64,000 nt of DNA from assembly GCF_027595985.1 (NCBI RefSeq), contig NC_073302.1, positions 219,315,854 through 219,379,853 on the forward strand. Direction: 5' to 3'. Shown one piece after another: positions 13,567-55,458 of the stretch. Position numbers and translations under genes: made by a program. This stretch comes from Sorex araneus (taxonomy: Eukaryota; Chordata; Mammalia; Eulipotyphla; Soricidae). Numbering within the stretch: position 1 is the first letter of the stretch; the number at the start of each line of letters is the position of its first letter. The notes below the pieces were generated by a model, which saw only the letters and a list, made by a program, of their open reading frames with translations, ran no database searches and was not told the DNA's origin.

Positions 13567-13712
13567 AGCACTGTAGCACTGTTAATGGTTTTCATCGATT
13601 TGCTCGAGCGGGCACCAGTAACTTTTCCATTGTGAGACTTGTTGCTGTTTTGGGCATATCGAATATGCCATGGGTAGCTTGCCAGGCTGTGCCGTGTAGG
13701 CAGGACGCTTTC
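13567..13712 (-). mobile_element. RTE-tailed SINE, 3' part (split by an L1 end)
   Basis: Inverted copy of the SINE whose 3' end derives from an RTE LINE: (AGCACTGT)-type tail, then TCGATTTGCTCGAGCGGGC, ACCAGTAAC, GGCATATCGAATATGCC and CTTGCCAGGCT. It stops at about 13712, where an L1 3' end begins; the continuation GATACTCTAGGTAGCTTGC appears at about 14131. Confidence 0.85.
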
Positions 13713-16447: not shown

Positions 16448-16700
16448 GTCCCTGTCCCTGTCACTGTCATCCCATTGCTCATCGATTTGTTCGAGCGGGC
16501 ACCAGTAACGTCTCTCATTGAGAGACTTATTGTTACTGTTTTTGGCATATCCAGTACGCACGGGTAGCTTGCAAAGCTCTGCCGCACGGGCTCGATACTC
16601 TCGGTAGCTTGCTGGGCTCTCCAAGAGGGGTGGAGGAATCAAACTCGGGTCAGCCGCGTGAAAGGCGAACGCCCAACCGCTGTGCTATTGCTCTAGCCCC
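16448..16700 (-). mobile_element. RTE-tailed SINE, full length with tRNA head and perfect TSD
   Basis: Plus-strand display: microsatellite tail (CCCTGT)n CACTGTCATCCCATTG, RTE-derived 3' end and body (ACCAGTAACGTCTC, TACTGTTTTTGGCATATCC, CTCTCGGTAGCTTGC), then an inverted tRNA head (CGCTGTGCTATTGCTCTAGCCC, split by one line here). Flanked by a perfect 11-nt TSD CTCCATTCCCT (16437-16447, 16701-16711). There is no poly(A). Confidence 0.93.
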
Positions 16701-16724: not shown

Positions 16725-17253
16725 TTTACTAATTACATATTATTGTCATTTTTATCTATATAACATTAATTTATACGATTCAGAGGTTTTGAGTACAGTT
16801 TCCTGTCTCTGAAATACTTATCACCATACCTCAGCCACCACCACAGTTTTAATATTGTCAATGACACTGTGTTGAATTTCCTCCCCCATCTCCCCCCTCC
16901 CCCCCAGCCCATCTTCCCTCCACACTGAAAACTACAGGTTCCCTATGTGAATTTTGAGGGTTCTTTTCATTTAATATCATTTCTTCCCTTGCTTTGCTTC
17001 TGTATCCCACATACAAATGAGAATACCTGATATTTTATTTTTTTCTTTTGTTGTATTTCACTTAGCATGACCCCTTCTAGTTCCATATAATTGTTACAAA
17101 AGGCATGATTTTATTTTTTCTTATGACAGAGTAGTCCTTTATGTATAAAGTAAACCACATTTTCTTTATCCATTTGTCTGTCATTAGGAATTTACTTGGG
17201 TTGTTCCCATATCACAACACTTGTAAATAATACTCCAGAAATAGGCATATATA
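16725..17253 (-). mobile_element. Older L1 3' end (antisense), part 1
   Basis: Inverted L1 3' UTR and ORF2 C-terminal remnants, including the region that in L1 carries the last ORF2 residues (plus strand: TATTTCACTTAGCATGACCCC, ATCCATTTGTCTGTCATTAGG; each shown for location only). More diverged than the 26 kb and 54 kb copies. Interrupted at 17254 by an RTE-derived element and resumes at about 17534. Confidence 0.8.
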
Positions 17254-17533
17254 TCACTGTATCACTGTCATTCTGTTGATCTTTGTTTTGCTCGAGTTGG
17301 CCCAGAAACATCTCTATTCCTCATAGTAAATTTTCGCAGCCTCTCTTTACTCGTACTTCCCAATGGTGCCACATTAGAGGCTCTTCAGAGTCAAGGGAAT
17401 GACACCCATCATTGTTACTGTATTTGGCATATGAATACGCCATGGGGAGCTTGCCAGGCTCTTCCCCTACTAGCAGTAAACTCTCCATAGCTTGCCAGGT
17501 TCTCCAAAAGGGACAACCTCTCTCTCTATATAT
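17254..17533 (-). mobile_element. tRNA-less non-autonomous RTE derivative inserted in L1
   Basis: Plus-strand display: ATCACTGTATCACTGTC tail, TTTGCTCGAG, the middle segment TAGAGGCTCTTCAGAGTC and ACACCCATCATTGTTACTG, then CATATGAATACGCCATGG and AGCTTGCCAGG, ending CTCCAAAAGGGA. It contains the RTE 5' segment and 3' end joined directly and has no tRNA head. Similar AGGCAT sequence on both sides hints at a TSD. Confidence 0.8.
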
Positions 17534-24540: not shown

Positions 24541-26006
24541 CCTGGATCTCCCAGACTATTTTCAAGCAGGAGAGTAATGTGTTTGAAATGACGTCTTAAG
24601 ATGACTCTTGTAGAGAATGAAGGAAATTTGGCAAGGGCAAGACAAGGAGATTAACATAAGGCTGTGGTAGGAAGACCAATGTGATGTAGAAAGGATGAAT
24701 TTGTATGATCTTGGGTCTCTATCTGCAGGCCTTAGGGGTCAGGTAGAACAAAAAGAGATTTCAAGCATGATTCTGGTTTCCTTGGGCAGCAGAGACTGGC
24801 AAGTCCCATTCTTCAATGGCAATGGGAAACACTAAAATGGGCATGAAAACTGTTTGGAGGAGGAAATAACAAGGCCATTGTGAGCACGTTCATTGTTAGA
24901 TGTCTTATTTCTTAGAAAGGTGCCTACAGCAAGACCGGTTTTCTGATTCTGCTTATCTTCTCTCCCATCATAGTTCGGAGCCTTTGGAGTTAGAACTGCA
25001 TAAATATTGGGTCTGCCTCTTGAAATAACTGGTGATGTGATCATGAGACAAATGACTGAACCTTTCTGAGCCTTGGGTTCATTTGCAGAAGGGATAATAA
25101 TACCTACCTAATTTACTATGAAGATTAAGTAAATTCATGGAAATAGGATCACTCATGCAGCAAGAGTTCTCTTGCATGGCTATACCTGCTATTAGGGCGA
25201 CTTTCTTTTTAAATTATTTTGGCATGTTCTTTCAATATAATGAAAGAACATTTTCATTATATCTTCTTATATATTTCAAGATATAACTTTTCCTTCTTTC
25301 TTCATTTTGTCCATTCTTTTCTTCCCCCTTCTGTCATTTTATTTCTTCTTCTTTGCTTTTTCCTCTCTTGTGGCAGCTAGCTATCTTTCAACTTAGACTG
25401 TCTGACTTTGAAATGTTGACTGATTTTGGTGAAGAGTTGGAATGTATAAGGAATAAAGCAGTAAAAAGGATGTAGCTTTTGGAAATGCTGGTTAAAGTAA
25501 AAAAAACCCTCTGTTATGATTATATCATAAGTTGGTACCTACACTAAGATGTTTCATAAACTTGGAATAATCGGTTTTCCCTATGGTTGGGTAAGAGAAA
25601 TGCTGCATGGTGTATCTGTCTAGAACTGGCATATTTTATTTCTCTTTTCAATGACTGAAGCAGATGTGCATGTTAAATAGAGTCACATGATATTATCAAA
25701 ATGTAGCACTCCAAAACAACTAGGTGTAACAAATATGAGAGTCAAATGGTAACTCTAATTTGCAACTCTAATACAGCGGTCACCTCTGATGGAAGATTGG
25801 TAAAATCCCACATTTATTCTGTACTTGAAACAACTTAAATATAGATATAGTAGCCTCGACTGACAGATGTTTCAGGTAGTTCAACCACAAATCAATTTAG
25901 TATTATACGTTGGAGAAAATTAGCAAATTTAGATACTAAAAAAGAACATATACTTTGAAATTCTCTACTGAAGTCATTTAGAAAATAAGTACCATAGGTA
26001 ATGATT

Positions 26007-26250
26007 AGGACTGGAGCTATAGCACAGAGGGTAGGGCTTTTGCCTTGCACACAGTCGATCTGGGTTCGATTCCTCCGCCCCTCTCAGGAAGCCTGGCAAG
26101 CTACCAAGAGTATCCCGCCCACATGGCAGAGCCTTGCAAGCTACCTATGGCATATTCAATATGCCAAAAACAGTAACAAGTCTCACAAGGAGACATTACT
26201 GGTGCCCGCTTGAGCAAATCAATGAGCAATGGGAAGACAGTGACAGTGAC
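26007..26250 (+). mobile_element. RTE-tailed SINE, full length, perfect TSD
   Basis: tRNA head (GGACTGGAGCTATAGCAC, AGAGGGTAGGG as A-box region, GGTTCGATTCC as B box). Then the body shared with the RTE 5' region: 26147-26178 is identical over 32 nt to 38834-38865. Next the RTE 3' end: 26189-26232 matches 40017-40060 at 36 of 44 positions. The tail is GACAGTGACAGTGAC. Flanked by an 11-nt TSD AGGTAATGATT (25996-26006, 26251-26261). Confidence 0.95.
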
Positions 26251-26297
26251 AGGTAATGATTGTCTCTCCTAATACATTTATCAAAAACTGAAGGTTG

Positions 26298-26395
26298 CAT
26301 TTGCAAATGATGATGATCATCATCATCATCCCGTTGATTGTCGATTTTTTTGAACGGTCTCGGTAACATCTCCATTCATCCTAGCCCTGAGATTT
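26298..26395 (-). mobile_element. tRNA-less RTE derivative, 3' part (split by a 2.5-kb L1)
   Basis: Microsatellite tail TGATGATGATCATCATC, then CCCGTTGATTGTCGATTTTT, CGGTAACATCTCCATTCATC and CTAGCCCTGAGATTTTAGAA. It matches the element at 44.03-44.26 kb up to the point where L1 sequence begins, and resumes at 28872. Confidence 0.88.
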
Positions 26396-26403
26396 TAGAA
26401 GCC

Positions 26404-28863
26404 ACTTTTTAAAAAAAATTATTTATTTTTAATTAGAGAATCACCGTGAGGGTACAGTTACAGATTTATACACTTTTGTGCTCATGCTTCCCTCATACAA
26501 AGTTCGGGAACCCATCCCTTCACCAGTGCCCATTCTCCACCACCAGTAAACCCAGCATCCCTCCCACCCTCCCCAATCCCATCTCCCCCCACCCCACCCT
26601 GCCACTGTGGCAGGGCATTCCCTTCTGTTCTCTCTCTCTAATTAGCTGTTTTGGTTTGCAATAAAGGTGTTGAGAGGCCTCTGTGCTCAGTCTCTAGCCC
26701 TCATTCAGCCCGCAACTCCCTTCCCCCGCATGGCCTTCTACTACAATGTAGTTGGTGATCCCTTCTCTGAGTTGCCCTTTCCCCAGAATGTGAGGCCAGC
26801 CTCCAAACCATGGAGTCAACCTCCTGGTACTTAATTCTACAACTCTTGGGTGTTAGTCTCCCACTCTGTTATTCTATACACCACAGATGAGTGCAATCTT
26901 TCTATGTCTGTCTCTCTCTTTCTGACTCATTTCACTCAGCATGAAACTTTCCATGCTGATCCACTTACATGCAGATTTCATGACTTCCTTTTTTCTAACA
27001 GCTGCATAGTATTCCATTGTATAGATGTACCAAAGTTTCCTCAACCAGTCATCCGTTCTAGGGCATTCAGGTTTTTTCCAGATTCTGGCTATTGTAAACA
27101 GTGCTGTGATGAACATATAAGTGCAGATGTCGTTTCGACTATACTTTTTTGCCTCTCTGGGATATATTCCCAGCAGTGGTATTGCTGGGTCAAATGGGAG
27201 CTCAACCTCTAGTTTTTTGAGAATCGTCCATATTGTTTTCCAAAAGGGCTGAACCAGTCGGCATTCCCACCAGCAGCGTAGAAGGGTCCCTTTCTCCCCA
27301 CATCCTCTCCAACAGCGGTTGCTTTTGTTCTTTTGGATGTGTGCTAGTCTCTGTGGTGTGAGGTGGTATCTCGTGGTTGTTTTGATCCTCATCTCTCTGA
27401 TGATTAGTGATGCAGAGCACTTTTTTTTTCTTTTTGGGTCACACCCGGCAATGCACAGGGGTCATTCCTGGCTCATGCACTCAGGAATTACCCCTGGCAG
27501 TGCTCAGGGGACCATATGGGATGCTGGGATTCGAACCCGGGTTGGCCGCGTGCAAGGCAAATGCCCTACCCACTGTGCTATCGCTCCAGCCCCGATGTAG
27601 AGCAGTTTTTCATGTGCCTTTTGGCCATTCGTATTTCTTCCTTGGTAAAGTTTCTGTTCATTTCTTTGCCCCACTTTTTGATGGGGTTGGATGTTTTCTT
27701 CTTGTAGAGTTCAACCATTGCTTTATATACCATTGATATCAACCCATTATCTGATGGGTATTGTGTAAATATCCTTTCTCATTCTGTGGATAGTCTTTGT
27801 ATTCTGGTCACTGTATCTTTTGCGGTGCAGAAGCTTTTTAGTTTAATGTAGTCCCATTTGTTGATCTCTGTTTTTACTAGATTGCTTAGTTTCGTGTCAC
27901 CATTGAAGATACCTTTATCTTCAATATCGTGGAGGGTTTTGCCGACCTTGTTTTCAATGTACCTTATGGTTTGTGGTCTAATGTTGAGGTCTTTAATCCA
28001 TTTTGATCTGACTTTTGTGCATGGTGTCAGGTCAAGGTCTAAGCCCAATTTTTTGCATGTGGTTGTCCAGTTGTGCCAGCACCATTTGTTAAAGAGGCTT
28101 TCCTTGCTCCACTTCACATCTCTTGCTCCCTTATCAAAGATTAGATGATCATACATTTGGGGTTGTGTGTAGGGATATTTCACCCTGTTCCATTGGTCTA
28201 CGGCTCTGCCTTTGTTCCAGTACCATGCTGTTTTAATTGTTACTGCTTTGTAGTAAAGTTTGAGGTTGGGGAGGGTGATGCCTCCCACCGTCTTTTTCCC
28301 AAGAATTGTTTTAGCTATCTGTGGACGTTTGTTGTTCCATATGAATTTTAGGATTGCTTGATTCGTTTCTTTGAAGAATGTCATGGGTATCCTTATAGGG
28401 ATCGCGTTGAATCTGTATAATGCTTTGGGGAGTATTGCCATTTTGACAACATTGATTCTCCCTATCCATGAGCAGGGTATATGTTTCCATTTCCTCATGT
28501 CCTCTTTTATTTCATGGAGTAACGTTTTATAGTTTTCTTTGTAGAGGTCTTTTACTTCCTTGGTTAAGCTGATTCTGAGGTACTTGATTTTCTGGGGCAC
28601 GATTGTGAATGGGATTGCTTTTTTCATGTCCCTTTCCTCTGCCTCATTGTTTGTGTATAGGAAGGCCATGGGTTTTTGGGTATTGATTTTGTAGCCTGCA
28701 ACTTTACTGTATAAGTCTATTGTTTCTAAAAGTTTCTTAATAAAGGCTTTAGGCTTCTCTAGATATAGTATCATATCGTCTGCAAATAGTGAGAGTTTGA
28801 TTTCTTCCTTTCCTATCTGGATGCCCTTAATCTGTTTTTCTTGTCTAATATCTATCACAAGTA
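26404..28863 (-). mobile_element. 5'-truncated L1 (antisense): 3' UTR and C-terminal third of ORF2
   Basis: Runs on the minus strand from within the reverse transcriptase domain to the poly(A). The minus-strand frame 27779-28858 (359 codons) starts just upstream of the catalytic FADD motif ([12 protein letters not shown] near 28790) and continues through the thumb region. The frame 26874-27392 carries the cysteine-rich C-terminal motif (C-x3-C, then H and C) and ends before the 3' UTR. A SOR SINE at 27421-27593 and a frame change separate them. Flanked by TAGAAGCC (26396-26403, 28864-28871), a likely TSD within the RTE derivative. It lacks the 5' UTR, ORF1, endonuclease and first part of RT, so it is dead. 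Confidence 0.95.
27421..27593 (-). mobile_element. SOR SINE nested inside the L1
   Basis: Inverted near-consensus SOR copy from GGGTCACACCCGGCAATGC to TATCGCTCCAGCCCC. It is bracketed by GATGCAGAGCAC (27409-27420) and GATGTAGAGCAG (27594-27605), an imperfect 12-nt TSD of L1 sequence. It interrupts the ORF2 remnant, so it is younger than the L1. Confidence 0.93.
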
Positions 28864-28871
28864 TAGAAGCC

Positions 28872-29046
28872 TTTTTTTACTCATCCGTCCTTCTCATTCT
28901 GCATTGGAGGCTCTTTCAGGGTCAGGGGAATGAGACCCATCATTGTTACTGTTTTGGCTTATGAATATGTATGGAGAGCTTGCCAGGCTCTCCCATGTGG
29001 GCAGGAAACTCTCGGTAGCTTGCCAGGTTCTCCAAGAGGGAGAACT
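28872..29046 (-). mobile_element. tRNA-less RTE derivative, 5' part after the L1
   Basis: ACTCATCCGTCCTTCTC, then TTGGAGGCTCTTTCAGGG, AATGAGACCCATCATTG, GAGCTTGCCAGGCTCTCC and CTCGGTAGCTTGCCAGG, ending CTCCAAGAGGGAGA. It resumes exactly where the 26298-26395 piece stopped, so the two are one element split by L1. Confidence 0.88.
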
Positions 29047-29395
29047 AGGCTATAAGATGTCCAAGTTTCCAGGAGCTTGGTTTTATAGTCTCTGGATGTT
29101 GGCTGTTGATGGGATTACATGATGCCAGAGGCAGTTTCTGGGTGTGACTGCCCAGCTACTGGAAAATGGGGGATCTGGGTGGAAGAAGCCCAGACTTGAT
29201 CTGAGCAGGCTTGGAGATCTCAGTCTTGAGTTCCGCACACCTGGGGTCCTCTGCCGGTTCCTTCATGCATGAGGCTCGTCCGAACTTATCAGACTCTCTT
29301 GCCCTCAAGCCTGGCTGTCTTCACCAGGGCCCCTCAGAGTGGGTGGGTTGAGTTTCCCTCCCCACCTGGAGCAGAGCCTCAGCAGCCAAGCAATG
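29047..29395 (-). other. GC-richer segment next to the RTE derivative, possible RTE 5' UTR
   Basis: Directly continues from the 5' end of the RTE derivative with no visible boundary. It is richer in GC than the flanks and contains runs such as GGGGTCCTCTGCCGGTTCC. It may be further 5' UTR of a longer RTE copy, or host DNA. I saw no clear match to the segment upstream of the 38.8-kb RTE. Confidence 0.3.
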
Positions 29396-29427
29396 GCAGA
29401 TGAAGCAATGTCAAATATTACAGCAAA

Positions 29428-29489
29428 AACATGCGGATTGGCTGCGTGCAAAGCAAACGCCCTACTCGCTGTGCTATCGTTCCAGTCCC
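29428..29489 (-). mobile_element. tRNA-head fragment of a shrew SINE
   Basis: Only the inverted head is present: GGCTGCGTGCAAAGCAAACG, CCCTACTCGCTGTGCTATCG, TTCCAGTCCC. The body is missing. Confidence 0.75.
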
Positions 29490-29544
29490 AACTTTATGCT
29501 TTTTAAAGTCTTGTGTATTAGAACCAGGGTTATGGCTGTAAGTG

Positions 29545-29655
29545 TGGACCACATGCCTCCCATACAGAGGCCCCAAATTGAATCCCTGGTAACACATGGT
29601 CCCCTGAATTCTGCCGAATAGCTGTGGTACCTCCCAGCACTGCTGGGTGTGACTG
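29545..29655 (+). mobile_element. Old SOR-like SINE remnant
   Basis: Weak match: CCAAATTGAATCCCTGG, ACATGGTCCCCTGAATTCTG, AGCACTGCTGGGTGTGAC. Probably a degraded SOR copy. Confidence 0.5.
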
Positions 29656-29744
29656 TCATAGAATCACCAGCCAACTCTGAATCATTATTGGTTAGGCCTG
29701 GGCAGTCAGCCTGAGTATCACCGAAAGTGACACCCAGCCCCATT

Positions 29745-30312
29745 AAGAATAGCTCAGGATGGACTTGGAGAGAATCATGCTGAGAGACATGAATCAAAAG
29801 GACAGTGATAGACATAGAATGATTGCCTTTATCTGTGGAGTATTAAAAATAAGGTGTAATATGAGACTAATACCCATGGACAATAGAAAACATGAAACAA
29901 GAAACAATAGAAAATTGGTGCCCAGGTAGAAGCTTGCTACAGGTGAAAGGATGGGGAGAGGGCAGTTAGGATAGAGAAGAGACCCATAAGATAATGATAG
30001 TTGGAAGGATCATTCTGGGCAAGAACTGAGTGCACAAAGGAGGTAAAGGTATTTACATGATAAACTTTCCTATATTGCAAACCATAATGCCCAAAAGAAA
30101 AGGAAGAGAGAGAGACAGAGAGACAGAGACAGAGACAGAGAGACAGAGAGAAGAGATGGGGTTGGAGCTGGGGCAGGTAGAGAGGATGACAGGAGGGAAA
30201 CTGGGGACATTGGTGGTGGGAAATGTAATACTGGCGAAGGGATATATACTATAATATTGTATGACTGAAATCCAATCATGAAAAACCCTGTTAAAAACAA
30301 AGCAAAGCAAAA
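29745..30312 (+). mobile_element. L1 3' end in sense orientation (ORF2 tail and 3' UTR)
   Basis: Begins in the last ORF2 codons (GGAGAGAATCATGCTGAGAG, GACATAGAATGATTGCC), then the 3' UTR with a purine-rich GAGACAGAGAGAC tract (30103-30153) and CAAACCATAATGCCCAAAAG. The end, GACTGAAATCCAATCATG, is followed by an A-rich tail. It is the same 3' UTR seen inverted elsewhere. One of few sense-oriented L1 ends in this intron. Confidence 0.85.
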
Positions 30313-30333
30313 AACATCTCAGGAAGCCCTACC

Positions 30334-30393
<60 letters not shown>
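30334..30393. repeat. (AC)n microsatellite
   Basis: About 30 uninterrupted AC units just after the L1 tail. A strong candidate polymorphic marker. Confidence 0.95.
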
Positions 30394-30395
<2 letters not shown>

Positions 30396-30484
30396 GCAAA
30401 GACCTTGTATATCCAATGACTTTATAAATAAATAATGCTTGAGTCATAATGGATTTTATTTATGAGCTATAATAAGCTTTCTAA

Positions 30485-30628
30485 GCATGCACAGGGGTTA
30501 CTCCTGGCTCATGCACTCAGTAATTACTCCTGGCGGTTCTCGGGGGACTATATGGGATGCTGGGAATCAACCCAGGTCGGCCGTGTGCAAGGCAAATGCC
30601 CTACCTGCTGTGCTATTGCTCCAGCCTT
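30485..30628 (-). mobile_element. SOR SINE, 3'-end truncated
   Basis: Inverted SOR copy beginning within the body at GCATGCACAGGGGTTACTCC and complete through the head (TGTGCTATTGCTCCAGCC). The 3'-most GGGTCACACC segment and T tail are missing, which is unusual for a SINE and suggests a later deletion. Confidence 0.88.
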
Positions 30629-31059
30629 AGAAATGTCATAATTAATTTCATTTAAAGTTAGGAAAATAAGAATTAATGAAGCGTAAGTTCTTGATAAAGT
30701 GATAAATGGATGAAACAGGCATATAAATAGAGGTATTTTTATTTTCATTTCACTAATGTAGATTCATTTTATAATGTGCATTTCTTATGAGCAAAAATGT
30801 TTGTGTAAGGTAAAAAAAATACTTTCCCCAATATTCCGCTTTGGATGTTAGTATAAACTTAAGGAAAATTAATTTATTAGTTTGGATTTGCTTCTAAAAC
30901 CTAATAAATGTATTTTTACATATATCTTCTATATAAAAATTTATATAACAGTTTTATATAATATAATTTTAAATAATAAATTTAAACAATTTTGTATAAT
31001 AAATTTTTATTGAGGCAATAATAAATACCATGTGCTTCCAGTTAACATCTACAATTCTT

Positions 31060-31208
31060 TTTGGATTTGCTCAGGGATCAATCCTGAATCTGTGCTCAAG
31101 ACTAACTCCTGATGGGTTCAGGAGACCATTTTGGGTGCTGGGGATTGAACTGAGGTCAGTCACATGCAAAGCAAGTGTCTTACCTGCTGAACTATCTCCC
31201 CAGCCTTT
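31060..31208 (-). mobile_element. Older SOR-like SINE with preserved 15-nt TSD
   Basis: Inverted diverged copy: TTTGCTCAGGGATCAATCC, GGGGATTGAACTGAGG, CATGCAAAGCAAGTGTC, CTATCTCCCCAGCC. The TSD ACATCTACAATTCTT (31045-31059, 31209-31223) is still perfect despite element divergence. Confidence 0.9.
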
Positions 31209-31223
31209 ACATCTACAATTCTT

Positions 31224-32362
31224 ACCTTGTTGTTAGAGTTGAGGTTCTTCCAGAAAGAACAAATCAACCATAGCTTTGTTTCATTTAGAGATTCACTTTC
31301 TCCAACAAGTATTAGTATAGCTTATACTAAAAAATTCAAACAAAAGGATTAAAGAGAATGTGTGTTTCTTTTTCTGTTTAGAACTACTTTTGTTCCTCAT
31401 GTTAATTTTGAACTAAGCTTTGAAGGTAGCATCCTTCTTTTACCTTTTGATGGAGGAAGTCAGCTCACAATTTTCTTTTTGTTTCAAGAAAACCCTGACT
31501 TTATGCTTCCAGACTGAGAAAGCAGACATGTTTGTTCTCAGTTTCTTTGCTGACTTCCTCAGAGCAGAAAAGTTTAATTATTTCATCTTGGTAATGCCCG
31601 ACCTGCTACTTTTAACTATACTTATATGGCTGTTAGAGGCATGAGTTGAGAACACAGAAAACAGTGTTTTCTGGCATAGTTCAAGAGAGCCACTTTAGAA
31701 TTGAAAATAAAGTGGTAAAACTGGTCAGTAGACTTCAGAAATTCAGGGACAGAAAAAGAAAACATTTCTCTTGCCCTAATTCTTCTCTTCTCTTATTCTA
31801 TGTGCAAAATAGTTCAAAATTAAGCATGTAACATTATTCCTATGGAATTAAGAGAAGTAAAGTACATTTAACCATTTGAGAAATTTTAACCATTTAATAA
31901 AAAGCAATTCCTGCTATCCAAACCTTAGGTATACTTTTATTTCACCATATATGTCTGCCCAATGACTAAATACAAACAATTTTACTGGTTTCCTGGATTT
32001 CTATAAAATCAGATTTTTTTTCACTAGCTCTATGGCTATGGATTCTGGTAAAACCAGATTGCGTTTTATTTTTAATAACTTAATATCTTAAGCTGTATAA
32101 AATAATAAACAGCACAGAGTAAGTTCTAGATGACTGCTAGCAATGAACCCCTCTATAATGCATATAATATGCATGAGAACCAGAATGTTTATTGGTTGTT
32201 TGCTGATATACCCTCAGTACCTGGCACTTAGTGGTGTGCAGAGGGACTTACTGAGCAAATGATTAACACTTTTTCTAAAACAACTCTCCCAAAGGATCTC
32301 AGTGTCTCTTGCTGGTTTCTCCTCATCTACCTATACCCTGTCTAGGGTAAAACATGATGTGT
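31224..32362. other. Intron 2 stretch without recognisable features
   Basis: AT-rich intronic DNA with only chance short ORFs. I recognise no repeats. Confidence 0.5.
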
Positions 32363-32530
32363 TGGGCTGGAGAAATAGTCCAACGGCAGGGTGCTTGCTT
32401 TGCATCAGTGGATACTGGTTTGATCCCTGGCATCTCCTATGGTGCCTTGAGCCCTTCCAGGGTGATCCCTGAGCACCAATGGGTGTCCTTCCCCTCTCCA
32501 AATTAAAAAAAAAAGAAAAAAAGAAGAAAA
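32363..32530 (+). mobile_element. Diverged SOR-like SINE
   Basis: GGGCTGGAGAAATAGTCCAA head, GGTTTGATCCCTGGC B-box region, GCCTTGAGCCCTTCCAGGG body and a poly(A)-rich tail. Confidence 0.8.
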
Positions 32531-32995
32531 ATACAACCATAATTTTAAAAATATTTTTTAATCCCTCATCTCATTTCTGCTGCCGTGTTAATTTTCTAAA
32601 GTGCAATTCTGCTCTCATCTTTACTTTCCATCTTTCAGCATCTCTTACTAGGCACAGAAGCCAAGCAAGCCTTTTCTTTTACACCCATTAGCCACTGCCC
32701 ACGTGTCCAGCCACCAGCCTATGTAGGATTCCTGACTCTGTCAGCCTTTCACATGTGTCCTGACTCTCCCATTTTCCCCAAATATATTTCACATTGTCTC
32801 TGCATGAAATATGTTCAAAACAGTGCATTTTTCTTCCTAACTTTCATCCTTGTTGGTAAAGCCAGGCATCACCTAGTCTATTTTCCCATAGCCTCTCATT
32901 TGTAGCAAGTGTTAAAAATTATCTAATTATATAGTTATAAACTGATTCATATAATAATTCGGATCATTATGCCAACATTAAAATAGCATATGCAG

Positions 32996-33179
32996 GGCTG
33001 GAGTGATAGCACAGCAGGTAGTCGTTTGTCTTACATGCGGCCTACCCAGGTTCGGTTCCCAGCATCCCATATGGTTCCCCAAGCACCGCCAGGAGTAATT
33101 CCTGAGTGCAGAGCCAGGAGTAACCCCTGTGTATCTCCAGGTGTGACCCAAAAAGCAAATAAATAAATAAATAAATAAA
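32996..33179 (+). mobile_element. SOR SINE, full length
   Basis: GGGCTGGAGTGATAGCACAG head, GGTTCGGTTCCC, body to AGGTGTGACCCAAAAAGC, then a (TAAA)n tail. Little diverged. Confidence 0.93.
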
Positions 33180-33319
33180 ATAACATGCATATATGTGAAT
33201 AATATGTAAATTGTTTACCAACAGATATAAGCGAGTACAAGTAATTGTCATCAAATAATAGTATAAGGTATTAATAAAAACTGTTGTTGGTGTGTTTTTT
33301 GAATAAGTGCTTACAATAT

Positions 33320-33527
33320 GGCGCTGGAGCAGTACAGTGGGTAGGGTGTTTGCCTAGCATGCAGCCAAGCCAGGTTCGAGTCCTCCATCCCTCTCAGAGA
33401 GCCCTGCAGGCTACTGAGAGTATCCTGCCCACATGGCAGAGCCTGGCAAGCTACCCATGCCGTATTTGATATGCCAAAACCAGTAACAACAAGTCTCACA
33501 ATGGAGACGTTACTGGTGCCCACTCAA
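33320..33527 (+). mobile_element. RTE-tailed SINE, lacking its terminal tail
   Basis: tRNA head (GGTTCGAGTCCTCC as B-box region), body with CTACTGAGAGTATCCTGCCC and GCCTGGCAAGCTACCCATG, and RTE 3' end up to GGTGCCCACTCAAGCAAATAA. The last ~30 nt and the GACAGT tail are absent. Confidence 0.9.
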
Positions 33528-33702
33528 GCAAATAATTCCCAATTTCAAATATCTCCTGAACCAGAGGACTCAGAAAAGCAAGTCCAACTGAGATTTGCTT
33601 TCTTTTAACTTAGTGACATTAGACAAGTCCCTCAACCATTGTTTTATGCCTTAGGCTCCTTAGTTTGTCTTTTTTCAAATGTAAAATCAAGAATATAATT
33701 CT

Positions 33703-33812
33703 CTTTTTTTTTAATTTTATTGAATCATCGTGAGAGAGTTACAAGCTTTCATGTTTGGGTTACAATCACACAATGATCAAACACCCATCCCTCCACCAGT
33801 GCACATTCTAAT
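33703..33812 (-). mobile_element. Short L1 3' UTR fragment (antisense)
   Basis: T-run, then TTTATTGAATCATCGTGAG, CACAATGATCAAACACCC and CCATCCCTCCACCAGTGCAC. Only the last ~110 nt of an L1, same subfamily as the 49.4-kb copy. Confidence 0.85.
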
Positions 33813-36659
33813 GTAGCAATCTCTCAGGGCTCTTACAAGGACAACACAACTAAAAGTGATTGCCCTACAATATGATAAATCTGTAAAGGTTTGAAATCAG
33901 ACAGTATATTCAAACAAATTCTGAAATAGGTGAGACTTGGTTAAATATTAATTCTGTTTCTATAACTCAAGCTTTACTTAAGAAATTGACCTTTATAAGA
34001 AATATGTTTAATTCCTATCTTGATCATTAGACTGGAGATTAAGAGATTTTTCCTGGTTTTCACATTTTATAGCATGCTTTAAACATCTCTCTACAACAAC
34101 ATAGACCTACAATTGTTCTCAGTAATTGCTTTCTATTTCATTCTCTGATTTAGTTCTATAATTTACCTGAACAATTGCAGCACTGTGTTTTAATAAATTA
34201 TAAATGACTTCCATGTAATTAACATTAATAATTATGGTATTCTAGTCCATGGTAAAAAATAATTTTTCATCCATCAATATTCTCTCTTCCATTAGTAACA
34301 GGTACAATCAAGCCTCATTTTGCTGCTTTGAAGAATTGATATGACTAAGACCCCCATTAACATTCCTTTATCCTTTTAGTATTAATCACAGAAAGTATGG
34401 TTTATAGTGATCTTTTGAACTTTGAATTCCTGACATGCTTATTTAGAGTACCTACTAGCTCAGAAATCATTTTACATTCTTCAGTGATAAACTATACATA
34501 AACAGAATTTCTTTAATATAAGCTAATGGCTCTTGTTCTATCAGTTTCTCTCTTTTCTTCACTTTATACAATTACTCTAAACTTTGGAGAGATAATTTTA
34601 TAAAATATATTAGAGAGTTATACTATCTGTTTAAATGTAGGTGTCCTTTCAAGATTTATGGTATAACATTGGTATAGCAAGCCAGCAAATAAAGAGAAAA
34701 GATTGGACATGATATTCCTCAGGTGATCAGCAATTTACCCAACTCAATTCATTGGGCTATTCTAAGAGCAGTCAGACTTTATTTTAACCTTATTTATTTA
34801 GAAAGAATGTGAGATTTAAAGAAGAATTAAAATAAATTATCTGAGACATGATATTAATTTCCTATTATCATTCTAATAAAATACCACAACCATTTTGTGG
34901 TGGTTCAAAACATCCCATTTTTTATCATTCAATCTGAAAGTTGATATTCTAAAATTACATCAAATTACGCTAAAATCAAGGTGTGCAAAAGGATGTGTTC
35001 TTCTGAAAATTTATAAAAAGAATCTGTTTTCCTGACTTTTTTTTGAGATTTTTATAATCTTTGTCTTGGGACCCCTTCCTTCTCTCTCAAGGCCACTGGT
35101 GTAGCAGTTTCAAGGCTTTCTTCCTAACGTATATGATTTGCTTCACTATTTCTCTTAAAAGTATCCCAGTGACTATATTGGGCTCATCCAGGTGATCCAG
35201 AATGTTATTCCATCTCTTAGTTCATTAGGAACATTGACTTTCCACTCTTAAATCAACATTCTCTTAAATCAACTCTACAACCTTAGATCTGCAATCATAG
35301 TCCCCCATGCCAAATAAACTAACATATTCATCAAGTCCAATGAATATGGACATCTTTGGGAAACCATCATTTATCCAATTCTATCAGCTTATCTATAGGA
35401 AATAAGCCAAGCAATCAATCAAGTCAATGTTTCTCGACATACTGATGTATTTCAAGGGGCAATGGATAAAGCCTCCTGTGAAAAAGCGCCAACTTTGATG
35501 CTTTCAGTAATACTTGAAAATCCATCATTATAATTGGTTTCTTTGAAGCTCACATGCAAAAAGGTCTTACAAATCCCCAAGTGAAATTCAGATATTATAC
35601 GTTCTCAGAAATTTTATAAATGACTTATTAAGAACACAAGAACCATTTTAGGGACTGGAAATAAGAGGAAGGATAGTAGAGAAGGTCACTAAGGGAGAAG
35701 TACAATAATGCCAGTTTTCTTTCTGCACTTCTGCATCACTTGGCTGAGAGCTAGTGTTAGTGGCAGGTTTTCCAACCCTTACATAGAGGTGCAGGCATGT
35801 ACAAACAGTATTGTAACTTTCCTTTGATGTGTTTTCTGCCATACTAATCCTTATTTACTACCATCTTGTTGGTACTTGACAGTTTAACTCCAAAGAAAAT
35901 CAATTGGCCCACTATCAACCAGAATAGAGATAGAGATTTGGCTACTAAGATTGACACTATATGTACTCAATTCAACTGAACAAATTTTTATGGAAATCTT
36001 AGTATGTGAAAACCATATTACTTAAAGCTATAGGGTTTATGCATGCTTTAGCAGATACTGCTTGGATCTCTTACTCTGGGTCTATACTGATACATAAAAG
36101 CTTAGGTTTAAAATTCAGACCAAAGTGATCTAAATAAATTAAAGAGAAAGTTCTTTGAATCATATATCCTAAAATGTATCCTGTAAAATTTGATATGTAT
36201 GATGTCCCATAAAACCAGGAAGGATGTCTGCACCTAAACTGTACTAGACTAAGGGTAGGTTTCAACCCCACAACCTAAATTTCTTATTTAAATAGTGAAG
36301 CAATGGCATATGCTACAGATACTGGACAGTCATCACTGAGGGAGAAAGATTGATCTAATCATTTTATCATCCCAGGGATAAGGAGGGGGAATTTAAGGTG
36401 CCAGAGGGTCTGAGGTCCAAAAGTAGTCACATTGGTATGTGTGTATGTGTGTGTATGCATGTATGTAAGTATATATATATAATATATGCATATGTATCCA
36501 GTACCATTCGCAATATGAATCTTATTACCTTTACTGCATCTGAAAATGTGGAAACAGGCATTTCTGAGTATGATTTTTGATGAAAAGAGGTTCTTATGAA
36601 GACTAGCTCCATCACGAGTTTGCCAAAGAAGATAAACAGAAAAACCTTGTTGGCTGGCA
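33813..36659. other. Long repeat-poor stretch of intron 2
   Basis: Nearly 2.9 kb in which I recognise neither SINE nor L1, in an intron otherwise dense with them. Only chance ORFs; TG/TA-rich at 36430-36490. Confidence 0.5.
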
Positions 36660-36706
36660 GACATTGAGAATAAGTCTAAACAGGGTCAGCAAGATAGTAG
36701 AGGGGT
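36660..36706 (+). mobile_element. Head of an old SINE, split by a young SOR
   Basis: AGGGTCAGCAAGATAGTAGA aligns to the SINE head and A-box region. The rest of this old SINE (TTCAGATACTTACTTTGCATG) resumes after the young insertion, at about 36899. Confidence 0.6.
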
Positions 36707-36884
36707 GGGGCTGGAGCGATAGCACAGTGGGTAGGGCGTTTGCCATGCATTCGGCCAACTGCGTTCGATTTCTAGGTTTGATTCCCAGATGGTCCCCTGA
36801 GCACCACCAGGGGTAATTCCTGAGTGCAGAGCCAGGATGACCCCTGTGCATCACCGGGTGTGACCCAAAAAGCAAAAAAAAAAA
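36707..36884 (+). mobile_element. Young SOR SINE inserted in the head of an older SINE
   Basis: Near-consensus copy (GGGGCTGGAGCGATAGCAC to GGGTGTGACCCAAAAAGC plus A tail). A small tandem duplication sits at the B box (GTTCGATTTCTAGGTTTGAT). The TSD, AAGATAGTAGAGGGGT versus AAGATAGTATAGGGGT (36691-36706, 36885-36900), has one mismatch. Confidence 0.92.
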
Positions 36885-36898
36885 AAGATAGTATAGGG

Positions 36899-37060
36899 GT
36901 TCAGATACTTACTTTGCATGAATCCAAGTCCCCAGTTTAAATCCCAGCATTACTCATAGTCTCCTGAGACCTGTTGGGAGTAATCCCTGAGCACAGAGTT
37001 GGGAGGAAGATCTGAGCACGTCCATATTTGGCCCAACTCACCCCCTTCAAAAAATAGAGA
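36899..37060 (+). mobile_element. Remainder of the old SINE
   Basis: TTTGCATGAATCCAAGTCCC, GAGTAATCCCTGAGCACAGAG and an A-rich end follow the SOR body order at high divergence. Confidence 0.65.
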
Positions 37061-37725
37061 AAAATAGATACCCAAATGTCCCTAGAGGCTGAGGGTAGTG
37101 AGAAGAACTGACAAAACATCTGAAGGGAGAGCAGTAGAGCATGTAACAATGCCCATACAAATCTCTTGGATGAAGAAAGTAACAGATCAGGGATCACATA
37201 GAGGAAAAAGGAAGAAGCAAGCTAGCTTCACTGTCTGTGTACATGTGTCATGTAACAGCAGCAAGCTAATATTTAATGCAGAAATGTTCCAGAGTTTATA
37301 CCAGAGCAAAGATGGGTATGTCAAAAATGACATCTGTTGATACCAATCCAGAAGGAGCTTAATAACATGTTTTATGAGGAGAGGTAGTTGGCCAGTCTCT
37401 GCATAAAAAGGTAATAAATTATTAACAAATTTTGAAGTTTCAGGGGGGAAATATATGAACTCTTTCATAGCTCTCTTTCTGAAACTATTCTAGATTTTGG
37501 ATATTTTAACACAAATAAATCTAACAACATTATGAAGTCTGCTAATCTCATTCTAGGCTATAGTCAATTAAGTAATACCTTTGTTTTTTAGAGGAATGTA
37601 TACAGGCTCATAAATTATCTCCTATGCCACTAAAGACTACTTGTGCCAGAAAATAAATGCCTGGTAATGCAAAATTGGAGAATGATGAAGTTTCATCCTT
37701 TTGTATATTATCTACATCTCAGATG

Positions 37726-37902
37726 GACTAGTTCTCAATCGTGATCAGGTATAGGACCACTTAAGAGAGTCTTTAAAATCCCCCAATCCAAGCCAGTTTA
37801 AGAAAAATACAACTCAGGAGCTGGCACTCAAATATGGCTATCTATTTTTTTAACCACATAAGTAATTTGATTATCTAGCCAAGTTTAAGGAACACTGGTT
37901 TA
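37726..37902. mobile_element. MER5A-like hAT-Charlie DNA transposon remnant
   Basis: Starts TAGTTCTCAATCGTGATC and ends AGTTTAAGGAACACTGG, resembling the CAGTGGTTCTCAA inverted termini of MER5-type elements. The spacing of ~177 nt also fits. Ancient (pre-shrew) repeat; assignment from memory of the consensus. Confidence 0.5.
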
Positions 37903-37975
37903 AAGAAAGTAAGCTCTAAATCCTGTCTGGATCTCTGGTCTCTTTTTGAAATGCTGATTAAACTGACTAAGCTAA

Positions 37976-38180
37976 GTCAGTGTTGCTCAAGCAGTGGTTT
38001 TCAAATATTAGCAGACATCAAAATAATTAGAGCTTTTAAGTACAGATTGAGAAGTACCACACCCAAATTGTGAGGTATCACCCCCAGATTGATGGTGCCA
38101 GAGGTACTACACTCTGGTCTAATGTGGGGTTCATCCAATGCCACTATTACTGATATTTGGAAGTGCACTCTGAGAACCTA
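37976..38180. mobile_element. Second MER5A-like remnant
   Basis: CAGTGGTTTTCAAATATTAG with ACATCAAAATAATTAGAGC and the end CACTCTGAGAACC follow the MER5A layout. It lies 75 bp after the first copy. Confidence 0.5.
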
Positions 38181-38319
38181 TAAAGACAATCAAGCAGAGT
38201 ATATTATCTAGTAAAAGCAAAATTTATATCTGGTAGTATTTTTCCTTCCCACTGCTTTTCCTCTTGACCTTAGAGATTTAATCTATGATTCAGAGTTAAT
38301 ATCAAACATAAGGTTTCAA

Positions 38320-38642
38320 ATAAATACCTCATAGGCCAACCTGCACTACCTCCACTACCCAGCCACTGCCACGCTCCAGGCCAACTTTCCGGATACTCGG
38401 GCTGAACCTCACACATGAGTGAAGCCCCTCAGAACCAGGTAAAGCAGAACATTGTGACCTTGGACTCCAGGCTCAACGAGACCCAGAAACAAGATCCTCT
38501 GTCTGCCTGCTCCAATCTCTGGTGCCCCAGAGATCAAACCCAGACAACCCATCCTTCCCACACCAGATAAATACTTCATCGGCTAACTTCCAGTACCTCC
38601 ACTACCCAGCCACCGACAGGCTCGAGGCCACATTCTGGACAC
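38320..38642 (+). repeat. 77-nt direct repeat upstream of the RTE
   Basis: Unit A (38320-38396) and unit B (38567-38642) share ATAAATAC.TCAT.GGC.AAC, then CTACCTCCACTACCCAGCCA and a CTC.AGGCCA end. They are 247 nt apart. Possibly a duplicated piece of the RTE 5' UTR; otherwise an unrelated tandem duplication. Confidence 0.7.
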
Positions 38643-38977
38643 ACCATAAGACACTTAACACCCATTTTCCATAATTTCCGTACCATATTTTGTGGGGCTT
38701 AAATATGGTGTGAACCATGGGAACACCTGTAAGGGCAATTAGAGGCTGCCCTAAAAGCCTCCATCCCTCTTGGAGAGCCCAGCAAGCTACTGAGAGTTAC
38801 CCCGCCCACACGGGAGAGTCTGGCAAGCTACCCATGGCATATTCAATATGCCAAAAACAGTAACAGCAATGGGCTTCATTTGCCTGACACTGAAAGAGCC
38901 CCCAATACAGCAGTGTTGGATGAGCAAGGAGAGACCGATAAAATCTCAGGGATGAAATAGACTGCCAAAACGAAGAA

Positions 38978-39660
38978 GGACTAAAACGACTGTCTGTACT
39001 TTCAACGCATGTGCGCTTGCATCAGAAGCATCCATCGAGGACCTGATGATGCAAGCACAGAAATTCAAGTACTACGTCATTGGTCTGACCAAAATGAGAA
39101 GGCATTGATCACATCATGCCATTTTTGACATTGGAGAAAAACTGTTCTTTCGAACATGGGACAACAGAGGCATTGGTGGTATCAGTGTCCTTGTCAATGA
39201 ACTTGGCCATGAGCATTGATTCATTCGAATGCCTATCAACCTGAATCGGATGATTATGCTTGAATAGATGTGGCTTACTGCTTACTGCTGGCAGTTTCTA
39301 TCTTTGTCATCTATGCACCGACATCCAACTATGATGAAGAAGAAATTGAGAAGTTCTACATGGAGCTGGAGAAGTTCTATAAAGAAGACCACACCTTCTA
39401 CAAGATCATTGTCAGTGATTTTAATGCCAAGAAAAGACCGAGAAGGTCACCCAAAGAACTCCACATTGGGACCCATGGCCTAGAATGGACAAACAGGGTA
39501 AGAGACTGTCTGAGTTTATCATATCAACCAAGATCATCTGTGGTAACTCAAAGTTCCAGAAGGCCAAATCTAAACATTGGACATGGAAGTCTCCCGGTGG
39601 ACAGTTCCATAATGAAATTGACCACATCATATTCAATTGAAGGTTTTGCCTGACCGATGT
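38978..39660 (+). pseudogene. RTE endonuclease domain remnant
   Basis: Conceptual translation in three shifting frames gives an RTE-type endonuclease order: TVCTFNACALASEA at the N-terminus (frame of 39001, stopped at 39106-39108), then GIGGISVLVN (about 39168-39198), VIYAPTSNYDEEE (about 39307), VSDFNAK (about 39412-39429, the D-x-N catalytic region of the EEP nuclease fold), HIGTHGLEW, and in another frame WTWKSPGGQF followed by NEIDH (39575-39622), which includes the conserved IDH near the active site. In living elements the domain nicks target DNA. Here stops and frame changes make it inactive. The wording of these motifs resembles nematode (hookworm-type) RTE proteins more than BovB as I remember them. 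Confidence 0.85.
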
Positions 39661-39669
39661 TGCTATTCG

Positions 39670-40070
39670 GATAGCCCAAAAAAAAAATCAAAAGAACTAT
39701 GGAGTTTCACGTTTCACTCAAGTGAGAGAAGGAATCTGGAGTTCCGACATCTGTCAACAATCAAGAATCAGGGATGCTGTCTCGTTTGCCAAGGCATCAA
39801 AAATCAGATGGGCCAGCCACATAATTCGATTAGAGACAACCATTGGACTAGAGCTCTTACTGACTGGATTCCACGACGTCAAAAGACTGTGTGGCCACCC
39901 ACCTACGAGATGGTCAGACATCTTCGTCAAAACCCTGAATGAATGGTTTGAGGCTCTCCATGTTCCTGGAGTGAGCAAATACCATTGGGCTATACTAGCA
40001 CATGACAGGGACGAATGGAGACGTTATTGACGCCTGTTTGAGCAAATCAAAGATCAATGGATGAAAAGTG
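39670..40070 (+). pseudogene. RTE polyprotein C-terminal remnant
   Basis: Motifs IRDAVSFAKASKIRW (frame of 39722), NHWTRALTDWIPRR (frame of 39637) and PPTRWSDIFVKTLNE (back in frame of 39722), then HDRDEWRRY, a TGA at 40028-40030 in the position of a Trp codon, and LFEQIKDQW. This is the tail found after the RT domain in RTE proteins. Its last codons lie within the 3' sequence shared with the RTE-tailed SINEs, whose tails still translate as WCPLEQIDEQW. Confidence 0.85.
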
Positions 40071-40663
40071 ATACAAGTGATACAAGGTTTCAAGTTCTTT
40101 AAGTTACTCATTTCTGACAACCTATTGAAGAGGTTTACAGAAAAAGTTAGATGAGTGTTGAAAATTTAAGCTCTGAAGTATTTTAAACTTAGCTTGAGAT
40201 GCCTGTGAAGGTAAGCCAATTTGTCTGTTCATCTAAAATAGATTAATATCTATTTCTAGTACATAGTGAGCACTATGTGAAGATGAATTGTATAGTTTAC
40301 ATTTGCCAAATATGATAATAAATTTAAGTGGTGATTGAAATTATACTATTTTTATTTGTCTCCTGTTCTACATATATGAAGAAAAATTCCACTTAAACAC
40401 CTATTTAGTGAACTGCAGTGAGGTATGGAAATAGCTTTCAGTTAATAAATGTATAGAAGTTAGTTCCAAAATTTTCATTGTGTATGTTGTGATATAGTCT
40501 CTTAACTATTAACTATCATCTGCTTAATAAAAATAGCTGATACGAATTGAGTTCTTTCTATCTCTCTCTCTTCTCACATAAATTATTTCATCCATAATCC
40601 TGCAAACACCTGTTGTAGAAGACAAATGGATTTCTTTAGCATCTAAAATGATATCACTTTGGT

Positions 40664-40839
40664 ACTGGAGTGATAGCACAGTGGGTAGGGTATTTGCTTT
40701 GCATGCAGCCAACCCGGGTTCAATTCCCAGCATCCCATATGGTCCCCTGAGCACCACTAGGAGTAATTCCTCAGGCATGAATCGAGAATAACCCCTCTGC
40801 ATCGCTGGATGGGACCCAAAAAGCAAACAAATAAATAAA
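40664..40839 (+). mobile_element. SOR SINE
   Basis: GGTACTGGAGTGATAGCACAG head, GGGTTCAATTCCC, body to GGGACCCAAAAAGC and an A-rich tail with TAAA. It abuts the next SINE directly. Confidence 0.92.
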
Positions 40840-41078
40840 GTAGCACAGTGGTAGGGTGTTCGCCTTTCACATAGCCGACCCATGTTTGATTGCTCCACCC
40901 CTCTCGGAGAGCCTGGCAAGCTACCGAGAGTATTGAGCCTGCACAGCAGAGCCTGGCAAGCTACCCGTGGCATATTGGATATGCCAAAAACAGTAACAAT
41001 AAGTCTCAATGAGAGATGTTGCTGGTGCCCACTCGAACAAATTGATGAGCAATGGGATGACAGTGACAGTGATAAATA
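40840..41078 (+). mobile_element. RTE-tailed SINE abutting the SOR tail
   Basis: Head lacks its first bases (starts GTAGCACAGTGG). The body carries the family's internal 18-nt direct repeat AGAGCCTGGCAAGCTACC at 40908-40925 and 40948-40965. The 3' end TCGAACAAATTGATGAGC and tail GACAGTGACAGTGATA are intact. Insertion into the A tail of the preceding SOR is likely. Confidence 0.93.
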
Positions 41079-44030: not shown

Positions 44031-44262
44031 CACTCTATCACTGTATCGCTGTCATCCAGTTGTTCATTGATTTGCTCGCACGGGCACCAGTAACGTCTCC
44101 ATTCATCCCAGCCCTGAAATTTTAGTAGCGTCTCCTTATTCGTCCTTCCCAATGAGTGTGTTGTATTGGGGGCTCTTTCAGGGTCAGGGAAATGAGACCC
44201 GTTATTGTTACTGTTTTTGGCATATCAAATATGCCATGGGGAGCATGCCAGTCTCTGCCGTG
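44031..44262 (-). mobile_element. tRNA-less non-autonomous RTE derivative (most complete copy)
   Basis: Read on the minus strand: RTE 5' segment (CATATTTGATATGCC, CAGTAACAATAACG, CCTGAAAGAGCCCCCAATAC), then AATTTCAGGGCTGGGATG joined directly to the RTE 3' end (AATGGAGACGTTACTGG) and a CAGCGATACAGTGATAGAG tail. It has neither tRNA head nor coding region. The minus-strand frame at 43925-44152 still reads DEWRRYWCPCEQINEQ, the RTE protein C-terminus. Flanks share TTAAAAAAA.TGTAA, a likely TSD (44016-44030, 44263-44280). Confidence 0.9.
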
Positions 44263-44483
44263 TTAAAAAAAGATGTAAACTAAAAATGATCATAATAAAA
44301 TCAAATGCAATTGTTTTCTGGGACTTTTTAAGCCACTGAAACATTAATCTAAATTACTTTCACAAATCCATGGATTAGGGCAGTTTCAGACTCAATTGAA
44401 TGAATAGTAACACTATTTAATAATATAGAGGCATCACTACTTCTACAACAAATTTTTAAAATAGAGAAGCAAAAGGAAAGTTA

Positions 44484-49959: not shown

Positions 49960-50160
49960 GCTTTCCGATTCCTCCATCCCTCTCGGAGAGCCCATCAAGC
50001 TACTGAGAGTATCCCACCCACATAGCAGAGCCTGGCAAGCTACCCCTGGCATATTCTATATGCCAAAAAACAGTAACAAGTCTCACAATGGAGACATTAC
50101 TGGTGCCTGCTCGACCAAATTGATGAACAACGGGACGACAGTGCTGCAGTGCTACAGTGC
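49960..50160 (+). mobile_element. RTE-tailed SINE, 5'-truncated (no tRNA head)
   Basis: Begins at the head-body junction (GATTCCTCCATCCCTCTCGG), contains both copies of the CAAGCTAC repeat and the GCATATTCTATATGCC palindrome. The RTE 3' end TTGATGAACAACGGGACG is followed by a GACAGTGCTGCAGTGCTACAG tail. Confidence 0.9.
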
Positions 50161-55370: not shown

Positions 55371-55458
55371 TGTACCAGAGTTTCTTTAACCAGTCATCTG
55401 TTTTGGGGCACTCTGGTTTTTTCCAGATTCTGGCTATTGTAAACAGTGCTGCAATGAA
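55371..55458 (-). mobile_element. Outer L1, antisense, part 2
   Basis: TGTACCAGAGTTTCTTTAAC continues the outer L1 ORF2 remnant for 88 nt to GCTGCAATGAA, then the outer TSD copy begins at 55459. It shows the outer element was itself short (under 0.9 kb) before the inner one arrived. Confidence 0.9.

Follow-up and report, generated by a model that had tools for sequence, protein, structure and literature searches.

A composite SINE of the shrew Sorex araneus, seemingly built for RTE mobilisation from a poly(A)-SINE head and two parts of an RTE LINE

We analysed a 64,000-nt stretch of the Sorex araneus genome (C1:219315854-219379853, hereafter the window) and, for all genome counts, the complete assembly of 2.406 Gb in 65 contigs. 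The element at 26007-26250 of the window is a short interspersed element (SINE) with three modules: an RNA polymerase III (pol III) head, followed by a body and a tail derived, respectively, from the 5′ untranslated region (UTR) and the 3′ end of an RTE long interspersed element (LINE). Judging from the sequences, we read it as a composite SINE that joins the head of a poly(A) SINE to an internal RTE 5′ UTR piece and the RTE 3′ end, and that was seemingly built for RTE-clade mobilisation (probability about 0.87).

Results

The SINE carries two separate parts of an RTE LINE

All modules of the window copy read on the + strand. The head (26007-26071) holds the A box and the B box of a pol III type-2 promoter, neither of which has a mismatch in the family consensus. 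It is followed by the body (26072-26178, from RTE 38758-38865), the body-tail junction (26179-26188; AACAAGTCTCACAATGGAGAC in the family consensus), and the tail (26189-26232), which comes from the last RTE codons (RTE 40017-40060). The element ends in a short tandem repeat, (GACAGT)n, without poly(A) (26233-26250), and the target-site duplication AGGTAATGATT flanks it on both sides (25996-26006 and 26251-26261). In the consensus, the order is a head ending in GGTTCGATTCC, the body CCTCTCGGAGAGCC...AAAAACAGTAACA, the junction AGTCTCACAATG, the tail GAGACGTTACTGG...GGGATGACAGTG, the short repeat, and unique flank.

Performing BLASTN with 26007-26250 against the RTE copy of the window, we find two matches. 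SINE positions 66-172 match RTE 38758-38865 (91/108 identical, E = 8e-30), and positions 183-226 match RTE 40017-40060 (36/44, E = 1e-8). The observed score of the body or the tail piece was reached by none of 500 dinucleotide shuffles. Both RTE matches claimed in a first-pass annotation of this DNA are thus far above chance. The 32-nt identity given there for the 5′ side does lie inside the first match, but that match covers 108 columns and is three times longer. The tail peptide, annotated as WCPLEQIDEQW, reads WCPLEQINEQW in the window copy; the D belongs to the family consensus.

The SINE consensus was aligned from the 28 loci closest to the window copy, which is among them, and four other window copies; the set is biased because the loci were picked by likeness to that copy. 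The RTE end consensuses, too, align to the SINE body and tail, so that the condition which the first-pass annotation had set against its own claim, RTE ends that fail to align, does not hold. The body of about 107 nt is identical to the RTE end consensus at 94/99 positions, and the tail, which corresponds to the last ~18 RTE codons, at 53/58.

The SINE forms a large family with the marks of retrotransposition

We counted junction patterns in the genome at zero mismatch, permitting Y/R at CpG sites; each pattern was also run in reverse as a control. The body-tail junction occurs 18,741 times, the head-body junction 8,496 times, the tail type common to the SINE and its headless derivative N (described below) 25,889 times, and the RTE-type tail 2,032 times. 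Each reversed pattern gave 0. Ratios between these counts are rough, as the patterns are unequal in length and in permitted letters. The junction patterns are nearly equally frequent on both strands. Since merely one of the seven window SINEs fits the body-tail pattern exactly, the family probably has of the order of 100,000 copies, by extrapolation from one window.

For target-site duplications, 53 sequences were examined, 41 of them full-length by criterion; one (L001) is the window copy, which leaves 40 distinct SINEs. A duplication score of at least 8 was found in 29 of these 40, compared with 2.8% of mismatched flank pairs, and duplications of ~8-16 nt flank most full-length copies. The copies end in variants of (ACAGTG)n, (CTACAGTG)n or (ATACAGTG)n, decayed in single copies, and no SINE copy in this listing has a poly(A) end. 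Short-repeat ends and target-site duplications should together be the trace expected of RTE-driven insertion.

A sample of the SINE/N-type tail, comprising the first 20 listed, all at one end of contig C1, held 10 full-length SINEs, eight copies cut at the 5′ side, and two copies of a second derivative, N2 (L093 and L107). Within the fetched stretch, none of the 20 was linked to a longer RTE open reading frame (ORF). In one of the 5′-cut copies (L108), body and tail are separated by about 40 additional nt.

Six more copies of the same plan had been annotated in the window. Body and tail are present in all six, but the head in four, those at 49966 and 13592 lacking it. The BLASTN matches that cover body and tail run over 40841-41072 (+), 16454-16699 (−), 49966-50143 (+), 33324-33533 (+), 56487-56689 (+) and 13592-13705 (−). 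By alignment, the copies are a full-length copy of an older type at 16453-16699 (− strand, target-site duplication AGGGAATGGAG); another copy of the older type, marked by a AACAATAAGTCTC junction and without the first 12 nt of the head, at 40841-41072 (+), next to a poly(A) SINE whose A-rich tail it adjoins; a copy without head at 49966-50159 (+); a copy cut off in the tail at 33323-33533 (+); and a copy with a deletion inside the body at 56487-56690 (+) and a headless one with the body and part of the tail at 13570-13712 (−).

The window RTE is dead and internally deleted

The RTE copy of the window occupies 38315-40085 (+), is internally deleted and carries stop codons. Its 5′ limit is the furthest point seen, the true end being not proven; the RTE begins at or before 38315, and not at 38756 as annotated. 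Parts that are adjacent in this copy sit 1,740-1,765 nt further apart in six other loci (L060, L061, L067, L072, L073 and L077), which shows that it has lost about 1.75 kb of the reverse-transcriptase region near 39660. It is a dead, internally deleted relative, and the earlier claim that it is the parent of the SINE does not hold.

Searched against the genome, the window copy yielded 42 rows for the 40 best-scored of 18,000 candidates. Of these rows, 40 start at query position 1-21; apart from the window copy itself, 32 of the 40 end at 893-913 and seven at 738-868. From these best 40 we took 20 loci of 6 kb each (L059-L078). The query contained the 5′ UTR, so that RTE copies without it rank lower and could escape the sample. 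The RTE 5′ UTR extends at least 440 nt above the body, at least to 38315. The SINE body does come from the 5′ region, as annotated, but from an internal, ORF-proximal segment of the UTR and not from the very end. The body is present in all 21 aligned RTE 5′ UTRs (the window copy and 20 loci), one or two with small gaps at its upstream edge. A chimera of a SINE with a LINE at 38.8 kb, which the first-pass annotation had raised against its own proposal, is therefore excluded.

The segment 38317-38396 is repeated at 38564-38642, and we take these as RTE 5′ UTR monomers with a period of ~247 nt. The copies L059-L078 start at varied points within such monomers, as in L1s with monomer promoters.

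Among four RTE ORF pieces from the region that the window copy lacks, the RVT_1 domain was found in one above the cut-off (L067, E = 2.3e-14); another piece gave 2e-4, below the cut-off, and two had no match. In IMG/VR, no relatives of one RTE protein piece were confirmed.

The head matches that of a resident poly(A) SINE

The head is 65/66 identical to the head of a poly(A) SINE at the consensus level, the consensus of the latter being built from 11 window places, one of them without its body. The identity ends directly after the B box, where the local alignment stops. Three window copies of this sister SINE are called as tRNA-Ala(TGC) by ARAGORN; one of them, at 40664-40810 (+), also scores 29.0 bits with the Rfam tRNA model. 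The sister copies end in A-rich tails. The tRNA head of the first-pass annotation stands as a tRNA-like pol III head, but it matches another SINE and not a tRNA gene directly.

Poly(A) SINEs like Sor rely on L1. The sister SINE with the common head is very likely Sor itself, reportedly described by Borodulina and Kramerov in 2001. The consulted parts of PMC8466645 and PMC11240701 present Sor as a SINE of shrews.

The body-tail junction folds into a hairpin

In the consensus SINE RNA, the junction region (26164-26200) forms a 12-bp hairpin, CAGUAAC..GUCUC / GAGACGUUACUG, which the junction sequence closes. The body-tail piece folds with a z of -2.67, and 2 of 200 shuffles were equally stable. 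The stem is longer in the older copy at 16454 and weaker in that at 40841. Paired with each other, the two arms of N reach -10.0 kcal/mol and the two arms of the RTE just -4.9 kcal/mol. The hairpin may serve for recognition, or it may be a relic of the event that produced the deletion.

We also considered pairing between the ends as a property of the RTE itself, and rejected it: in 13/13 RTE copies the best partner of the tail is not the UTR zone (rank 20-509 among 397-780 windows). A folded structure of the RTE 3′ end alone was likewise dropped, being no better than shuffles (z = 0.91).

Headless derivatives N and N2 join the two RTE parts

The elements that we call N consist of the RTE 5′ UTR joined to the RTE 3′ end without any head. 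By BLASTN and alignment, the window has two of them, at 44036-44263 (−) and, longer at the 5′ side, at 17252-17513 (−), in which ~150-185 nt of RTE 5′ UTR are fused to the last ~75 nt of the RTE; a fragment of N-type or RTE 5′ UTR without the 3′ part lies at 28870-29041 (−). The N junction occurs 2,575 times in the genome (reversed pattern, 0). Searching the genome with 44036-44263, we obtained 41 rows at E<=0.001, of which 40, the window copy included, cover both the 5′ UTR and the 3′ end. N forms a family of its own and is a possible intermediate to the SINE. N2 (L093 and L107) is a second deletion derivative, with a junction that differs from that of N.

We fetched the 12 best matches to 44036-44263, a sample hence biased towards that copy. 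Four of them (L079, L082, L083 and L084) start within 3 nt of GGCAGAGCC, and L079 and L082 have clear flanking target-site duplications. Further headless copies start at or near GGCAGAGCC (SINE consensus 115-122), namely L091, L095, L099, L108 and the window copy at 44263, which gives many headless copies a fixed 5′ end that has no known promoter. Five longer N copies (L080, L081, L085, L088 and L089) have a 5′ stretch that is not in the studied RTE UTR, possibly a 5′ UTR belonging to a different RTE subfamily. It reads ..AACATACTTG.TT.TATTCT.TTATA.ACATT.TC.. and in L089 it is partly inverted too. L090 carries an RTE UTR piece from further up. A decayed N-type junction, with three mismatches, is seen at 26360-26392 (−), just downstream of the SINE.

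A ten-nt microhomology, CAGGGACGAA, at the N junction is not claimed as the cause of the deletion, as a two-step deletion explains the junction equally. The latter is possible because the sequence in N is CTCA-GGGCT-GGGACGAATGG, and GGGCTACACTAG..GGGACGAATGG occurs in RTE 3′ ends as well.

The elements lie beside a FREM-type exon

An open frame of 1779 codons at 4124-9460 (+) has a Frem_N domain and 12 Cadherin_3 stretches, and is by these domains the putative first exon of a FREM-type gene. Presumably it is the large first exon of FREM2, in which case the repeats past it would sit in the first intron. The annotated placing of SINE and LINE in the same intron is consistent with such a first exon. 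Long open frames at 26877-27461, 27782-28876 and 54608-55393 (−) resemble L1 ORF2 remnants, judged by eye.

Discussion

Origin of the composite SINE

The following course of events would account for the composite SINE. An RTE RNA would have lost its interior, so that the 5′ UTR was joined to the 3′ end, as in the headless N. A template switch during reverse transcription would then have attached this body-tail unit downstream of the B box in a poly(A) SINE. From the borrowed promoter, pol III would make the new SINE RNA, and the RTE reverse transcriptase would recognise the RTE-derived tail with its repeat end and prime on that RNA. With an RTE-derived tail behind it, the borrowed promoter, which presumably relied on L1 and poly(A) before, would come to depend on the RTE. 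In the retained parts, N is a subset of the RTE and the SINE is a subset of N, which fits nested deletions.

Several observations weigh against this proposal. The RTE 3′ end was recovered in 14 of the 20 loci; none of these 14 ORF-linked ends, nor the window RTE, has the SINE-type GATGARCAA, and 13 of the 14 have an ACAAGTG-type repeat (L064 being unreadable). The direct parent subfamily is thus not found among the examined copies. From 40 hits we picked three further ORF-linked copies whose length hinted at a SINE-like tail. One (L117) has the SINE-type codons and another (L119) the SINE-type repeat, so the SINE tail states do exist in RTE copies, and the third (L118) is ordinary. These are mosaics only; no RTE copy was found with all the SINE tail states. 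The endonuclease domain PF14529 reached 16.2 and 16.9 bits in two of five RTE pieces, below the cut-off of 27.4, and was absent in three. ARAGORN calls no tRNA in the SINE head itself, just in the three sister copies. As for the order RTE to N to SINE, six body sites group SINE and RTE against N and three group SINE and N against RTE, and single sites leave the order ambiguous and not proved.

The competing explanations differ in how much of this they touch. That the SINE arose directly from the full-length RNA of a minority RTE subfamily, N being a side branch, is a serious possibility to which we give somewhat less than an even chance; it disputes the order of events only. In its favour, the SINE body is nearer to the RTE (94/99) than to N (91/99), although some of the six body sites behind this grouping look like CpG decay in N, and the existence of two deletion derivatives, N and N2, indicates that such deletions recur. 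The tail states may also be a trait of an RTE subfamily; N2 has them too, but its two copies were found by a pattern that demands them. On the other side, SINE and N have GGTGCC, GATGARCAA, the CAGTG repeat and GTCTC in common, tail sites group SINE with N against RTE four times and SINE with RTE against N twice, and the AACAATAAGTCTC of the older-type window SINEs at 16454 and 40841 resembles the AACAATAACGGGTCTC of N. Comparing these sites, we consider an N-like intermediate somewhat more likely than a direct RTE origin.

The match between body and UTR has by itself no direction, and one could suppose that the RTE 5′ UTR captured a pre-existing SINE body. We regard this as very improbable: the SINE tail encodes the RTE C-terminus, the contiguous UTR stretch common to N and RTE is longer than that common to SINE and RTE, the RTE UTR consensus has no head-like sequence at the border, and deriving the SINE from RTE subsets requires deletions only. 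A fortuitous match, or a chimera created at one locus by assembly or insertion, would have nothing to recommend it beyond the first observation being from a single locus. Thousands of zero-mismatch junctions, near equal on both strands and with reversed controls of 0, as well as the target-site duplications and the shuffles, refute it and leave it a negligible probability.

Divergence was measured as non-CpG Kimura two-parameter distance from the consensus. In the tail sample, with its 10 full-length SINEs, it is 0.081; in the 28 SINE loci nearest to the window copy it is 0.057, in 21 RTE UTRs 0.058, in 15 RTE 3′ ends 0.068 and in 12 N copies 0.046. Because all sets but the tail sample were picked by similarity, the values give no ranking of the families by age.

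Partner LINE and significance

The partner LINE is probably RTE1_Sar, a name that we attach from host and abundance. According to the consulted parts of PMC6542046 (Dunemann and Wasmuth 2019), RTE1_Sar probably passed between strongylid nematodes and Sorex araneus; the shrew, in which it is abundant, was the only mammal found to have it, and copy ages did not suffice to confirm the direction of transfer. What it has in common with the LINE studied here is being an RTE LINE that abounds in the shrew. Searched by term, the main text of that paper gave 0 occurrences of 'sine' or 'non-autonomous'.

The full history that we would draw has about an even chance of being right. A LINE exchanged between an ancestor of the shrew and a parasitic nematode (RTE1_Sar) would in turn have been parasitised within the mammal: two of its parts, joined to the promoter of a home-grown SINE dependent on L1, would have given rise to an undescribed SINE family, which at ~100,000 copies is more numerous than its foreign helper. 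This would be an independent repeat of the BovB/Bov-tA case, with intermediate-like derivatives surviving.

SINE births are usually rebuilt from end products. Here one genome contains the finished SINE together with its LINE, the head donor (or its sister) and headless derivatives of two kinds, which makes order, junctions and age workable. If the LINE is RTE1_Sar, a tRNA-headed SINE followed a LINE of horizontal history at least twice in mammals (BovB and RTE1_Sar), and this would suggest that RTEs are easily exploited once they arrive. Moreover, two SINEs with one head and different bodies and tails offer a natural test of which part sets the helper LINE. Three features make the case more than routine: the probable nematode link of the LINE, a head that also occurs in a poly(A) SINE, and deletion derivatives that have survived.

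Comparison with known systems

Mammalian SINEs with RTE-clade partners in the examined rows of Table 1 of PMC3747384 are Bov-tA, Bov-A2, Ped-1, Ped-2, Afro SINEs and SINE2-1_EC, and also SINE2-1_Pca, RTE1-N1_LA, RTESINE1, MAR4 and Mar-1; no shrew SINE/RTE pair is among these rows. Nor is such a pair in the consulted parts of PMC4476161, PMC3183009, PMC12026660 and PMC8384839, and none was found in the open-licence PMC literature, a scope that makes the absence weak. The composite SINE would be a new member of its class unless a repeat database already holds it.

In Sor, a body of its own and an A-rich tail follow the head, whereas the head here is joined to RTE pieces. Ped-2 of the springhare, with a 'tRNA (ID SINE)' head and a BovB tail, is similar in that an existing SINE head was moved onto an RTE tail; it differs in host, head and LINE, and the table lists no 5′-end piece for it (PMC3747384). 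The architecture of N, an RTE 5′ part with the 3′ end, is like that of RTE1-N1_LA, RTESINE1, MAR4 and Bov-A2 (PMC3747384), which belong to other LINEs and hosts and are likened by their description. Bov-A2, described as '5′-end of BovB', is moreover a headless LINE-end family beside Bov-tA, as N is beside our SINE (PMC3747384).

Bov-tA of ruminants has the Bov-A unit as a part of itself. The analogy with Bov-tA drawn in the first-pass annotation is apt, as the consulted Table 1 of PMC3747384 gives Bov-tA a tRNA-Glu head and Bov-B as partner; in both SINEs, the tail of an RTE-clade LINE is thus combined with a head of tRNA type. BovB is in addition a LINE with a horizontal history (PMC6542046), like the presumed partner here. 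The two SINEs differ in several respects. The body here is an internal 5′ UTR piece. Body and tail match the resident RTE and would thus have another source than BovB. The sister head is tRNA-Ala(TGC) in three copies, which speaks against tRNA-Glu, the SINE head itself not being called. Judged by promoter, tail, short-repeat end, target-site duplication and copy number, all of which we find, the shrew element appears to be a tRNA-headed SINE with an RTE tail, of the Bov-tA type as a class.

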